The notes under the pieces: generated by a model
Seen by the model: only the letters and a program-made list of their open reading frames with translations
What the model was told of the DNA's origin: nothing
Databases searched by the model: none
NCBI GenBank assembly: GCA_903910385.1
Contig: CAIVZM010000038.1
Location: 1-64,000 of the forward strand
From: an uncultured Armatimonadota bacterium
Lineage (GTDB): Bacteria; Armatimonadota; Armatimonadia; Armatimonadales; Armatimonadaceae
DNA: 64,000 bases
Direction: 5' to 3'
Position numbers and translations under genes: made by a program
In this document: positions 5,498-32,663 of the stretch, piece by piece
How positions within the stretch are numbered: the stretch's first letter is position 1
Layout of the letters: every line of letters begins with the position of its first letter

Positions 5498-6709
5498 CTA
5501 ATATTTAGGAACGGACGGGTCGACTTCTTCCGACCACGAATTGATGCCGCCCTTGAGGTTCGTCAGATTCTTGAAGCCTTTTCCCCTCAGAATATCCAGC
5601 GCTCTGGCGGAGCGGACGCCCGCTTTACACTGGAGAACGATTTCAGCATCCGGGTCTAACTCGCCGGAACGCTCGCCGATGACTCCGAGCGGAATCAGGG
5701 TTGCGCCCGGAATGCGAGCGATATCCCATTCGTAGGGTTCACGCACATCGACCAGAACGAAATCTTCACCTGCATCCATCTTCGCTTTCAGTTCCGTCAC
5801 CGAGATTTCGCGCATGGGTTCCGTATCCTCTGTACTTTGTGTCGTTTCACCGCCGCGTCCGACGCCGCAGAATTCTTCATAATCGATCAGTTCGGTGATG
5901 GTTCGATGCTCGCCGCAGATGGGGCAGTCGGGGTCTTTACGCAGTTTGAGTTCGCGGAACTTCATGCCCAGCGCATCGAAGAGCAGCAAGCGACCAACCA
6001 GAGGTTCGCCAATGCCAAGAATCAACTTGACCGCTTCATTTGCCTGAATACACCCGACGATGCCGGGAAGGATCCCGATAACGCCGCCTTCCGCGCAGGA
6101 AGGCACGAGTCCCGGCGGCGGCGGTTCGGGATAGAGGCAACGGTAGCAAGGCCCATTGCCCAGAGGGCACCCGGCCCAGAAGACGGTCGCCTGCCCCTCG
6201 AAGCGGAAGATAGAACCATACACATTGGGCTTGCCGAGGAGCACGCAGGCATCATTGACCAGATATCGGGTGGGAAAGTTATCGGTGCCGTCGATGATCA
6301 GGTCGTAGTTCTCGAAAAGCTCCAGCGCGTTCGCCGAGGAAAGCATGGTGTTGTGCGTCTCCACCACGATTTCGGGATTGATATCCAGCAGGGTATCTTT
6401 CGCCGACTCGATCTTCAGGCGACCGACGTCTTTGGTCCCGTGCGCGATTTGCCGTTGGAGGTTGGTCACATCGACCACATCGAAATCCACCAGTCCGATG
6501 CGCCCCACCCCTGCCGCCGCCAGATACATGGTCAGGGGGGAACCCAGTCCTCCCGTCCCGATGCACAGCACGGAAGCCGCCTTGAGCCGTTTCTGACCCT
6601 CGAAGCCCACTTCCGGCAGAATCAGGTGCCGCGAATACCTTAACAGTTCCGCCGAGCTTAACTTTACATCCGCTGGATTCACCGCCAGCGTCGCCGCTAT
6701 ATTACCCAC
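5498..6709 (-). CDS. MoeB/ThiF-like E1 adenylyltransferase with C-terminal rhodanese domain
   Basis: An E1-like enzyme that adenylates the C-terminal Gly-Gly of a MoaD/ThiS-type protein and then helps to put sulfur on it. Residues 1-270 are the ThiF/MoeB fold: GTGGLGSP (51-58), DxxNLQRQ (near 82-87), zinc ligands Cys188/Cys191 and Cys262/Cys265, and a candidate thioester Cys205 (VPSCAEGG). After a polar linker, residues 300-403 are a rhodanese domain with DVREPYEW and the persulfide loop CKAGVRS (Cys361). This is the MoeZ/MOCS3 arrangement, in which one chain activates the carrier and supplies the sulfur. The possible carrier in the window is the MoaD-NIL fusion at 32103, and a JAMM protease lies at 9712. 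Confidence 0.92.
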   Translation of the reverse strand: MGNIAATLAVNPADVKLSSAELLRYSRHLILPEVGFEGQKRLKAASVLCIGTGGLGSPLTMYLAAAGVGRIGLVDFDVVDVTNLQRQIAHGTKDVGRLKIESAKDTLLDINPEIVVETHNTMLSSANALELFENYDLIIDGTDNFPTRYLVNDACVLLGKPNVYGSIFRFEGQATVFWAGCPLGNGPCYRCLYPEPPPPGLVPSCAEGGVIGILPGIVGCIQANEAVKLILGIGEPLVGRLLLFDALGMKFRELKLRKDPDCPICGEHRTITELIDYEEFCGVGRGGETTQSTEDTEPMREISVTELKAKMDAGEDFVLVDVREPYEWDIARIPGATLIPLGVIGERSGELDPDAEIVLQCKAGVRSARALDILRGKGFKNLTNLKGGINSWSEEVDPSVPKY

Positions 6710-9711: not shown

Positions 9712-10518
9712 CTACTCCCCTTCGGCGAAACGGTGCAGGTGGGCGATGACCGCCATCAGGTGTTCCTTATTCGAGCCGCGCAAACCCATCGTTTCCCGTT
9801 CAGTCGTTTGCAAAAAAGCGAGGAATTCGGCATCCGAAGCATTCTGTCGCAACAGAACGGTAATAGCAGGAACATAGCTGGCGTACTCGTCTCGCGCCTC
9901 CGGCGTATCATTGACGCCTATGGGATCCCAGATTTCCCAGAGGATTCTGTCCACCCCTTCTGTGAAGGTCGTATCCGTTCCTGTATCTTTATCTTCTTCG
10001 TTGTTTTCCACTAAGTTGTTTTCCACTAACATGATAGTTTCCGCACGGAACGCCATTGCATCCTCCGTTAGCGCCCAGGCGGTTATTTCCGCAGGGGCGC
10101 CACCAGGAACCGCGATAATAACATAGGAATACCCCGGGAAAATCTCCTGCGCCAGACGCAGATCATATTCGCTCGGAATCGCGGGGCTATCCGGGTGCGA
10201 ATGATAAAAGCCAAGAATATCTTCGCCCTTTGCGCGAGCGGCTTTATCCGCTCGATAAAATTCGTCCGGTGGAATAGCGAACCGTCGCCGACGAGTTCCC
10301 GTGATGAAGTCCGCTCCCACATCCCGGAATGACGCCCCGTCAGACTCCCAATCATTGACAATGGGAAGCAAATGGGAGATGACCTTTTCCTTCACCGTGG
10401 AGACGCCGATCAGGAAACCGCAGATTTCGTTGGGATACCCTTCCGAAGCTTCTTGCGCCAGTTGCCGGGTTTGTGAAGCGGTCAATGCGATTATCAGGGG
10501 GGCAAGCGCGTCGTCCAT
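9712..10518 (-). CDS. JAMM/MPN+ metalloprotease fused to an extra C-terminal domain
   Basis: A predicted zinc isopeptidase/protease of 268 residues. The complete JAMM signature is present: Glu31 (NEICGFLIG), His106 and His108 (HSHP), Ser116 and Asp119 (SEYD). Bacterial members of this Mec/QbsD-like class cut after the Gly-Gly of ubiquitin-like sulfur carriers, for example in CysO-Mec and QbsE-QbsD. Residues about 185-268 form a second, helical domain with WEIWDPIGVND and DEY, followed by ERETMGL; I know similar sequences as free-standing small bacterial proteins of unknown function, so the fusion is unusual. An acidic linker (NNEEDKDTGTD) separates them. TATAGA lies four bases before the ATG, so the mRNA may be leaderless. 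Likely substrate in this window: the MoaD-NIL fusion at 32103. Confidence 0.88.
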   Translation of the reverse strand: MDDALAPLIIALTASQTRQLAQEASEGYPNEICGFLIGVSTVKEKVISHLLPIVNDWESDGASFRDVGADFITGTRRRRFAIPPDEFYRADKAARAKGEDILGFYHSHPDSPAIPSEYDLRLAQEIFPGYSYVIIAVPGGAPAEITAWALTEDAMAFRAETIMLVENNLVENNEEDKDTGTDTTFTEGVDRILWEIWDPIGVNDTPEARDEYASYVPAITVLLRQNASDAEFLAFLQTTERETMGLRGSNKEHLMAVIAHLHRFAEGE

Positions 10519-31217: not shown

Positions 31218-32099
31218 TTACAGACCCGATGGTTGCAGAAAGCCAGCAGTGATGCAGGTTTTATCTTTGCTGAAGAGCATTAGACGGTATGTTTTGTAGA
31301 TAGCGAAGTTCGCTCCCGTTCGCTGTCCGGTGAAGTACTTTTTGTTGACCTGCTCTATGGGCTTACTAAGAGTCCATCGTATCATTTTATACAGGAATGG
31401 CTGCCGCTGTCGCGCTAGTTCACAGGCTCGTTCCTTCATGGGTTGAACAACAGCAGTAACAAATCCCTGAGTCAGGTCAAGATTCGGTGCGGTCTGCGCC
31501 GTGATATCAATATCTGTGACAAGGGTCAGAGGCTGACAACTTATGCTGTCGTGGAATTTTGCCAGATAGTGACCACCGCCCATCGGCCCACGGTCTGGCA
31601 TCGGGTTTTTAAAGAAATCACAGATGAGCAAGTACCCATCGGGTTGGAGCAGCTCACATGTATGCTTGAGGGCGATATCCAGTTTCATGTACTGGAAACT
31701 TTCGCTGAACAGTACCATGTCATATCGCTTCTCTGTTTGAAATTCCTCAAACCGAGACTCAAAAATCGGCGTGTCTGACCCAAGGCGACGACGCGCCCGC
31801 TCATTCAGGAAAGGGCTGGGAGAAACGCAATCCACCTCATAACCCGCCGCTTTTAGCCGACTGGCAAGCGCCCCTACGCCGGAGCCTACATCCAGAATTG
31901 TCTTGACGCCCGGCGGGATATGAGAAAGGAGGAAGTTGGAATGCGCTTCCTGCGCCTGCTTCAGGTTCGCCAGTTCTAGTGGGACATCACTGTCCCAATA
32001 GCCATAGTGAAGGTCATCCGTCTTTGCCAAATACTCAGCGAGGACGATTGCGCATTCAAGACCGAGTTCCTGGACGGAAAGTTTTTGGTTCTTTTCCAA
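31218..32099 (-). CDS. Class I SAM-dependent methyltransferase
   Basis: 293 residues with a Rossmann methyltransferase core. Motif I is ILDVGSGVGALASRL, motif II acidic end is in VDCVSPSP, motif post-I EFQTEKRYDMVLFSESFQYM and motif III LLQPDGYLLICDFF. The N-terminal LHYGYWDSDVPLELANLKQAQ resembles gamma-tocopherol/cyclopropane-type enzymes acting on lipids or isoprenoids, but the substrate is not clear. The start is TTG at 32099, three bases after the stop of the MoaD-NIL gene, so the two are almost certainly in one transcript and perhaps translationally coupled. This association is the main functional clue. Confidence 0.82.
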   Translation of the reverse strand: MEKNQKLSVQELGLECAIVLAEYLAKTDDLHYGYWDSDVPLELANLKQAQEAHSNFLLSHIPPGVKTILDVGSGVGALASRLKAAGYEVDCVSPSPFLNERARRRLGSDTPIFESRFEEFQTEKRYDMVLFSESFQYMKLDIALKHTCELLQPDGYLLICDFFKNPMPDRGPMGGGHYLAKFHDSISCQPLTLVTDIDITAQTAPNLDLTQGFVTAVVQPMKERACELARQRQPFLYKMIRWTLSKPIEQVNKKYFTGQRTGANFAIYKTYRLMLFSKDKTCITAGFLQPSGL

Positions 32100-32102
32100 C
32101 AG

Positions 32103-32663
32103 TTACGTGCCGCGTCCGACAGAAGCCGGGATATACGCTTCATCCGGTTCGACCAGATCGGACACTGGCCCGGTGACATTGACGCCCGTCGTATGGAGTT
32201 CCGCGATGGCGCGACCGATTTCCTCAGCCGGTCCGGTCAGAGCGATTTCCGCCCAACCGGATTCTTCGGACATATTGGCGCGTCGGATATTGACGACAAC
32301 CCGAAATTTCTTACCGAGGGTAAAGAGGATCGGGTTATTGAACATCCCGCGATGAAAGCTCAACTGATACACTTCCGTACCGTTAGCGCCGCCAGCAATC
32401 GCCGGGACAATCGAGACTTCGTCGCCGTCCTTGAGGGGCGTTTCCGCATTTTGCAGAAAGCGCACATCTTCACCACCCAGGTAGATGTTGACGAATTTTC
32501 GCGGGTTCCCGTTTTCGTCAATCAATGGCTTGCCCAACCCGGGATGCGCCGCATCGAGAGCCTTGAGCATTGCGCCGATGGTATCGGCATCCACAGTCAC
32601 AGTATCCGCCTCGCCCGTAAACTTGCGAAGAGGAGTCGGTATTAACACCTTCACGGTGGCCAT
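32103..32663 (-). CDS. MoaD/ThiS-like sulfur carrier fused to a NIL domain
   Basis: 186 residues. Residues 1-92 are a beta-grasp sulfur carrier: MATVKVLIPTPLRKFTGE, VNIYLGGEDVRFLQN, then LKDGDEVSIVPAIAGG with the diagnostic Gly91-Gly92. Instead of ending there, the chain continues into a NIL domain (about 98-170; VYQLSFHRGMFNNPILFTL, VVVNIRRANMSEE, ALTGPAEEIGRAIAELHTTG), a fold otherwise seen in methionine-related ABC transporters and ferredoxins. To be adenylated by an E1 such as the one at 5498, the Gly-Gly must be exposed by cutting after residue 92, a reaction expected of JAMM proteases such as the one at 9712. The ATG at 32663 is chosen by family alignment; the frame extends to 32720 without similarity. 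Followed after three bases by a methyltransferase. Confidence 0.88.
   Translation of the reverse strand: MATVKVLIPTPLRKFTGEADTVTVDADTIGAMLKALDAAHPGLGKPLIDENGNPRKFVNIYLGGEDVRFLQNAETPLKDGDEVSIVPAIAGGANGTEVYQLSFHRGMFNNPILFTLGKKFRVVVNIRRANMSEESGWAEIALTGPAEEIGRAIAELHTTGVNVTGPVSDLVEPDEAYIPASVGRGT

Follow-up and report, generated by a model that had tools for sequence, protein, structure and literature searches.

The window analysed here, i.e. the whole stretch of 64,000 nucleotides from an uncultured member of the Armatimonadaceae, belongs to a genome that we label G000 (other G and L labels stand for compared genomes and loci) and whose assembly is 95.2% complete and divided into 84 contigs. On its minus strand it encodes a two-domain protein, P0001, and at some distance a candidate activating enzyme and a candidate protease. 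The features concerned are the following:

32103..32663 (stop codon included), minus strand: ThiS/MoaD-NIL fusion protein P0001, 186 amino acids, ATG start (ORF, Pfam, AlphaFold)
32388..32663, minus strand: beta-grasp sulfur-carrier domain of the CysO/MetO type, residues 1-92 (Pfam ThiS 6-92; phmmer to CysO 3dwg_C, E 1.6e-17; VIA Z 16.8)
32388..32393, minus strand: Gly91-Gly92, an internal Gly-Gly with a predicted cut after Gly92 (AIAGG invariant in the fusions; coil at 88-93 in the model)
32106..32372, minus strand: NIL domain with C-terminal tail, residues 98-186 (Pfam NIL 98-163; profile match to MetN 3dhx, E 5e-10; VIA Z 10.8-12.8 to MetN chains)
5498..6709, minus strand: E1 (ThiF) of the MoeB/MoeZ type with rhodanese domain, candidate activating and sulfurating enzyme (Pfam ThiF 5.4e-82, Rhodanese 2.2e-17; NCBIfam MoeB/MoeZ)
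9712..10518, minus strand: metalloprotease of the JAMM/Prok-JAB type, candidate for cutting the fusion (Pfam Prok-JAB 1.6e-23; active-site residues kept)

Both parts of P0001 exceed their Pfam gathering scores (ThiS with E 2.7e-15, NIL with E 9.6e-9). The solved structure nearest to the carrier part is CysO, by phmmer as well as by VIA, and the second part combines a match to PF09383 with the fold of the C2 domain of MetN, a methionine importer. Gly91-Gly92 is followed by ANGTEVYQ, which means that in the protein as translated the Gly-Gly does not lie at a free C-terminus: 94 residues stand beyond it and it becomes free only once the chain is cut. In the AlphaFold model (mean pLDDT 91.4, pTM 0.59) residues 88-93 are modelled as coil, with a folded domain on either side; this is compatible with domains that are independent of each other and joined by an accessible linker, their arrangement being uncertain. 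The initial annotation had described a ThiS/MoaD carrier fused to NIL with its Gly-Gly buried in the chain, and this is borne out by the open reading frame, by Pfam and by twelve further fusions; the E1-rhodanese and JAMM genes that it had listed are likewise both real according to Pfam. An open reading frame for a class I methyltransferase (31218-32099, minus strand) begins 3 bases past the stop codon of P0001.

Related fusions were sought in 291 genomes from the phylum and, by a single scan, among GTDB species genomes. The search gave 13 distinct in-frame ThiS-NIL fusions, namely that of the window and those of G095, G249, G274, G275 (L210), G282 (L196), L201, L132-L136 and L146, where G282/L196 and G275/L210 are one genome each and were counted once. 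The Gly-Gly, whose conservation among homologues with the same fusion had been put forward as a point to check, is invariant: AIAGG precedes the NIL part in 13/13, and the next residue varies (A, G, D, N). Given twelve other in-frame fusions that all contain this motif, the architecture is not a product of chance. In close relatives the carrier and NIL are encoded by separate genes a short distance apart. The carrier of G002 ends with Gly-Gly-stop and its NIL protein starts with M-AQASEVY; that of G006 ends with Gly-Gly plus two residues and NIL is again separate. Most homologues end at Gly-Gly and others bear one to nine extra residues. At the join in the window Gly92 leads directly into the counterpart of NIL residue 2, the methionine of NIL is lost and no ATG remains for it. 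Judged from these relatives, two adjacent genes are the usual state and the fused state is derived. An assembly or sequencing error that merely simulates a fusion of genes that are really separate might be suspected from the 84 contigs, from the separate genes of G002 and G006, which represent sister genera, and from the position of the window genome as single representative of its genus in the comparison. However, the join is clean, one base change would not yield two normal genes and the same fusion recurs in other genomes; we consider such an error very improbable.

The carrier used by the enzyme MetM is MetO. MetM itself is a threonine-synthase-like enzyme from Streptomyces that makes homocysteine, from which methionine is formed (Hasebe et al. 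2024, as cited in PMC12172450). In 70 of 80 homologous loci the flanking sequence retrieved around the carrier and/or NIL gene contains a MetM-like gene, nearly always directly adjoining both, and these loci are spread over Verrucomicrobiota, Chloroflexota, Actinomycetota, Armatimonadota and deltaproteobacteria. One arrangement is the operon CysH-TusA-MetM-[ThiS-NIL]-E1-JAMM of L196, L201 and L210, accompanied by CysM and/or sulfite reductase. A close variant is found in L126, with the run MetM-[ThiS-NIL]-E1-JAMM-CysM and CysH upstream, and L132 and L135 show the order MetM-[ThiS-NIL]-CysM-JAMM-E1. In Verrucomicrobiota MetM-carrier-NIL is found mostly without a strong JAMM match, and JAMM is therefore not needed for the core pathway. 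Neither the window nor five related MetM/carrier loci gave an Rfam match to a SAM or other riboswitch.

Several further arrangements were observed. Loci L019, L020, L024 and L026 as well as L105-L108, L114 and L119 encode carrier-E1-rhodanese fusions of about 480-500 amino acids with internal Gly-Gly, directly behind a JAMM gene. In L162, L166, L169, L191 and L203 (mostly Chloroflexota) MetM-NIL-ThiS is followed by clusters of two CysM-like genes, E1 and two more ThiS matches, some with JAMM. L038, L040, L033 and others, from several relatives that belong to the same taxonomic order, have a chlorite-dismutase-like gene (HemQ-like, as judged by eye) between MetM and carrier. On contig 82 of G006 (L031, L113) the MetM-like gene is broken into frames, and this genome also has MetX and PF01053 matches.

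The history of the fusion can be followed partly on the tree of linked MetM proteins. There the fusion label requires four changes, at least three of which are forced by well-supported branches and one of which is maybe a loss; the second tree excludes the MetM of G006, whose reading frame is broken. G095 has no MetM match; with the split state of its relative G097 it likely represents a further origin. The ThiS-NIL fusion thus probably originated about four times. Two genes downstream of the G095 fusion (L121:10070-11227) a Cys/Met PLP enzyme of the PF01053 type is encoded, as if the carrier-NIL pair served a MetY-type enzyme there.

In G000 the MetM-like protein is located on contig 10 (C10) and the ordinary threonine synthase ThrC on contig 75 (C75). 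Their identities to the linked MetM of a relative are 58% and 37%, respectively. The genes for MetM, E1, JAMM and the fusion lie apart from one another in G000, so the carrier is unlinked to metM. The search for the ThiS family gave two proteins: P0001, which is the sole carrier of the CysO type detected, and a short protein of about 80 amino acids. Searches of G000 detected neither MetX nor DUF39/HcyBio, nor any PF01053 protein (Cys/Met PLP enzyme, the family of MetY-type sulfhydrylases) at E 1e-30. Since none of these was detected, MetM together with P0001 is the only recognised homocysteine route there. Read from gene content, the pair likely constitutes the homocysteine route of G000, whose missing sequence could hide another gene. 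In the phylum at least one of MetX, HcyBio and MetM occurs in 59 of 61 genomes, and MetM and MetX tend not to occur together (counts 6/20/26/9, Fisher p 1e-4, kinship uncorrected). A link to methionine or homocysteine sulfur assimilation, as the initial annotation had suggested, is well supported by the MetM neighbourhood and by the absence of other routes from G000. By this route an organism for which the searches gave no textbook genes could still make methionine.

A carrier of this type could also serve mainly cysteine synthesis in the manner of CysO-CysM-Mec, with the MetM-like protein as a second threonine synthase and JAMM releasing cysteine from the carrier. CysO is indeed the nearest solved carrier, CysM-like genes occur in several of the operons and the NCBIfam name for the MetM-like protein is threonine synthase. 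Yet most loci conserve MetM-carrier-NIL without CysM, MetM is anti-correlated with MetX, no other homocysteine route was detected in G000 and NIL is a methionine-linked domain (MetN profile match; PMC5764234). We regard a primary role in cysteine synthesis as unlikely. A role as protein modifier like SAMP or Urm1, with JAMM as de-modifying enzyme, is suggested by NCBIfam matches to SAMP1 and desampylase that lie below the cut-off; sulfur amino-acid genes consistently neighbour the homologous loci, and we give this explanation hardly any credence. Rather, we consider it reasonably probable that P0001 provides the carrier for a homocysteine pathway that depends on thiocarboxylate, and that it is made as a pro-protein with NIL placed after the Gly-Gly.

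For such a pro-protein the cleavage step is decisive. Adenylation of carriers like MoaD, ThiS and CysO needs a free C-terminal glycine. The pair CysO-Mec, which had been named as a precedent for cutting after Gly-Gly, is a weak one: Mec acts on CysO-cysteine, from which it releases cysteine, and MoaX and the MoaD-MoaE protein of Deinococcus are closer. MoaX requires cleavage between Gly82 and Ser83 for activity (PMC4326299), MoaD-MoaE is cut by DRJAMM (PMC8832034), and release of fused ThiS/MoaD by JAB proteins was proposed already in 2006 by Iyer et al. (PMC1779556). Given this chemical requirement, and following the example of MoaX and MoaD-MoaE, the carrier of the window must probably be cut free before it can work.

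The JAMM protein of the window keeps the active-site residues Glu, HSH, Ser and Asp and is the only Prok-JAB match in G000. The JAMM proteins of the operon loci keep them as well, the match in L201 being cut by the contig end. The proposed check for co-occurrence of JAMM and E1 with the fusion did not speak against the idea of a cut: JAMM matches are present in 11 of the 13 fusion genomes, the two others being small genomes of 1.8 Mb, and E1 and JAMM share one gene run with the fusion in two fusion lineages. Carrier and JAMM also co-occur tightly across the 61 phylum genomes (30/2/1/28, kinship uncorrected). The counts for JAMM are 26/4 with fused or tailed carriers vs 13/42 with Gly-Gly-stop carriers (Fisher p 1.7e-8, kinship uncorrected; L201 scored as JAMM-positive despite its truncation). 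A test of independent pairs for anything after Gly-Gly vs JAMM gave 0.7 vs 0.7 (p 1), and under a constant rate the lack of any extension in the Verrucomicrobiota clade has P of about 0.12-0.14. The presence of JAMM was therefore rejected as proof of cleavage: the raw association stems from one large JAMM-poor clade of Verrucomicrobiota and loses significance after phylogenetic correction. This makes cleavage by JAMM the best inference and not a result.

The same loss of significance, together with the report that the protease of MoaX is unidentified (PMC4326299), leaves room for another protease that cuts the fusion, in which case the JAMM of the window would work on carrier adducts or other carriers. 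We think this quite improbable, as the operons of two fusion lineages include JAMM and an equivalent fusion is cut by DRJAMM (PMC8832034). The JAMM protein itself has a C-terminal extension (residues about 176-262) for which no Pfam family was found and which matches stand-alone open reading frames in the relatives G003:C467, G001:C57, G030:C32 and G014; some relatives have this frame without a JAMM match. The joining of JAMM to this extension could be another case of gene fusion in G000.

The pro-carrier pathway that we propose would comprise four steps. At first JAMM would cut after Gly92 and yield a carrier with free C-terminus and a NIL protein. The E1 would then adenylate the freed glycine and its rhodanese domain would help to convert it to the thiocarboxylate. 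The MetM-like threonine-synthase homologue encoded on the other contig would put this sulfur on O-phosphohomoserine, thereby forming homocysteine. Finally NIL, which is related to the C2 domain with which MetN senses methionine, might assist or regulate this last reaction, perhaps by binding methionine.

Some features of the NIL part bear on this last role. In the profile alignment Asn125 of P0001 corresponds to Asn295 of MetN, a residue needed for methionine binding (PMC12357092). NIL is also part of a NIL-ferredoxin protein in the homocysteine route of DUF39, in which no function has been assigned to it (PMC5764234). In P0001 NIL could plausibly sense methionine or bind a substrate. Several genomes of the family to which the window belongs retain NIL although no CysO-type carrier was detected in them, so NIL may have a function that does not depend on the carrier. 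The initial annotation had regarded NIL as the partner released by the cut. This can stand for the derived fusions but does not apply in general, because NIL is normally a separate neighbour protein. More speculatively, NIL could act as a methionine sensor in the pro-carrier, where bound methionine would control either the cut by JAMM or how the carrier docks on MetM. We attach only a small probability to this idea; if true, it would represent a direct end-product feedback of methionine on the release of the sulfur donor.

The chemistry of sulfur carriers and the MetM pathway are already known. A steady partnership of carrier and NIL with repeated fusion that keeps the internal Gly-Gly was not found described in the literature examined. 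The literature search yielded no paper that brings NIL domain, MoaD and sulfur carrier together, and NIL and threonine synthase are unmentioned in PMC1779556 and in PMC2948915. NIL, unexplained in the DUF39 route, is now tied to a second, unrelated and carrier-based homocysteine route. The repeated joining with retained Gly-Gly makes both maturation by JAMM and methionine sensing by NIL testable with small soluble proteins.

Among the closest known systems is MetM/MetO of Streptomyces (PMC12172450): most homologous loci likewise place a threonine-synthase-like enzyme beside a small carrier with Gly-Gly. In contrast with it the carrier of the window bears NIL in the same chain and its gene lies apart from that for MetM, and the sources examined do not mention NIL as a regular third partner. 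With CysO-CysM-Mec of Mycobacterium tuberculosis the system shares carrier fold and sequence, E1 with rhodanese and JAMM, as well as CysM in related operons, whereas CysO ends at Gly-Gly and has no NIL. MoaX of M. tuberculosis and MoaD-MoaE of Deinococcus radiodurans are likewise carriers with internal Gly-Gly fused to a partner, and cleavage after the second glycine has been shown for them, by JAMM in Deinococcus. Their partner is however MoaE and their product molybdopterin, instead of NIL and, as we infer, homocysteine. The HcyS/HcyD route uses a carrier extended past Gly-Gly, JAMM and a MetY-type PF01053 enzyme and leads to homocysteine. Extended carrier, JAMM and the expected product are thus similar, but the PF01053 enzyme was not found in G000, although the related fusion of G095 does sit near a gene of this type. 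This protein-thiocarboxylate methionine route of Wolinella is cited in PMC5764234. The MoaD-related protein of T. thermophilus (PDB 1v8c) also has a MoaD-like domain, an internal Gly-Gly and then a second domain, which differs in not being recognisable as NIL by sequence. With the C2/NIL domain of MetN and the NIL-ferredoxin of the DUF39 route P0001 has the NIL fold in common, including the match of Asn125 to Asn295 of MetN; what distinguishes it from both is the attachment of NIL to a sulfur carrier.
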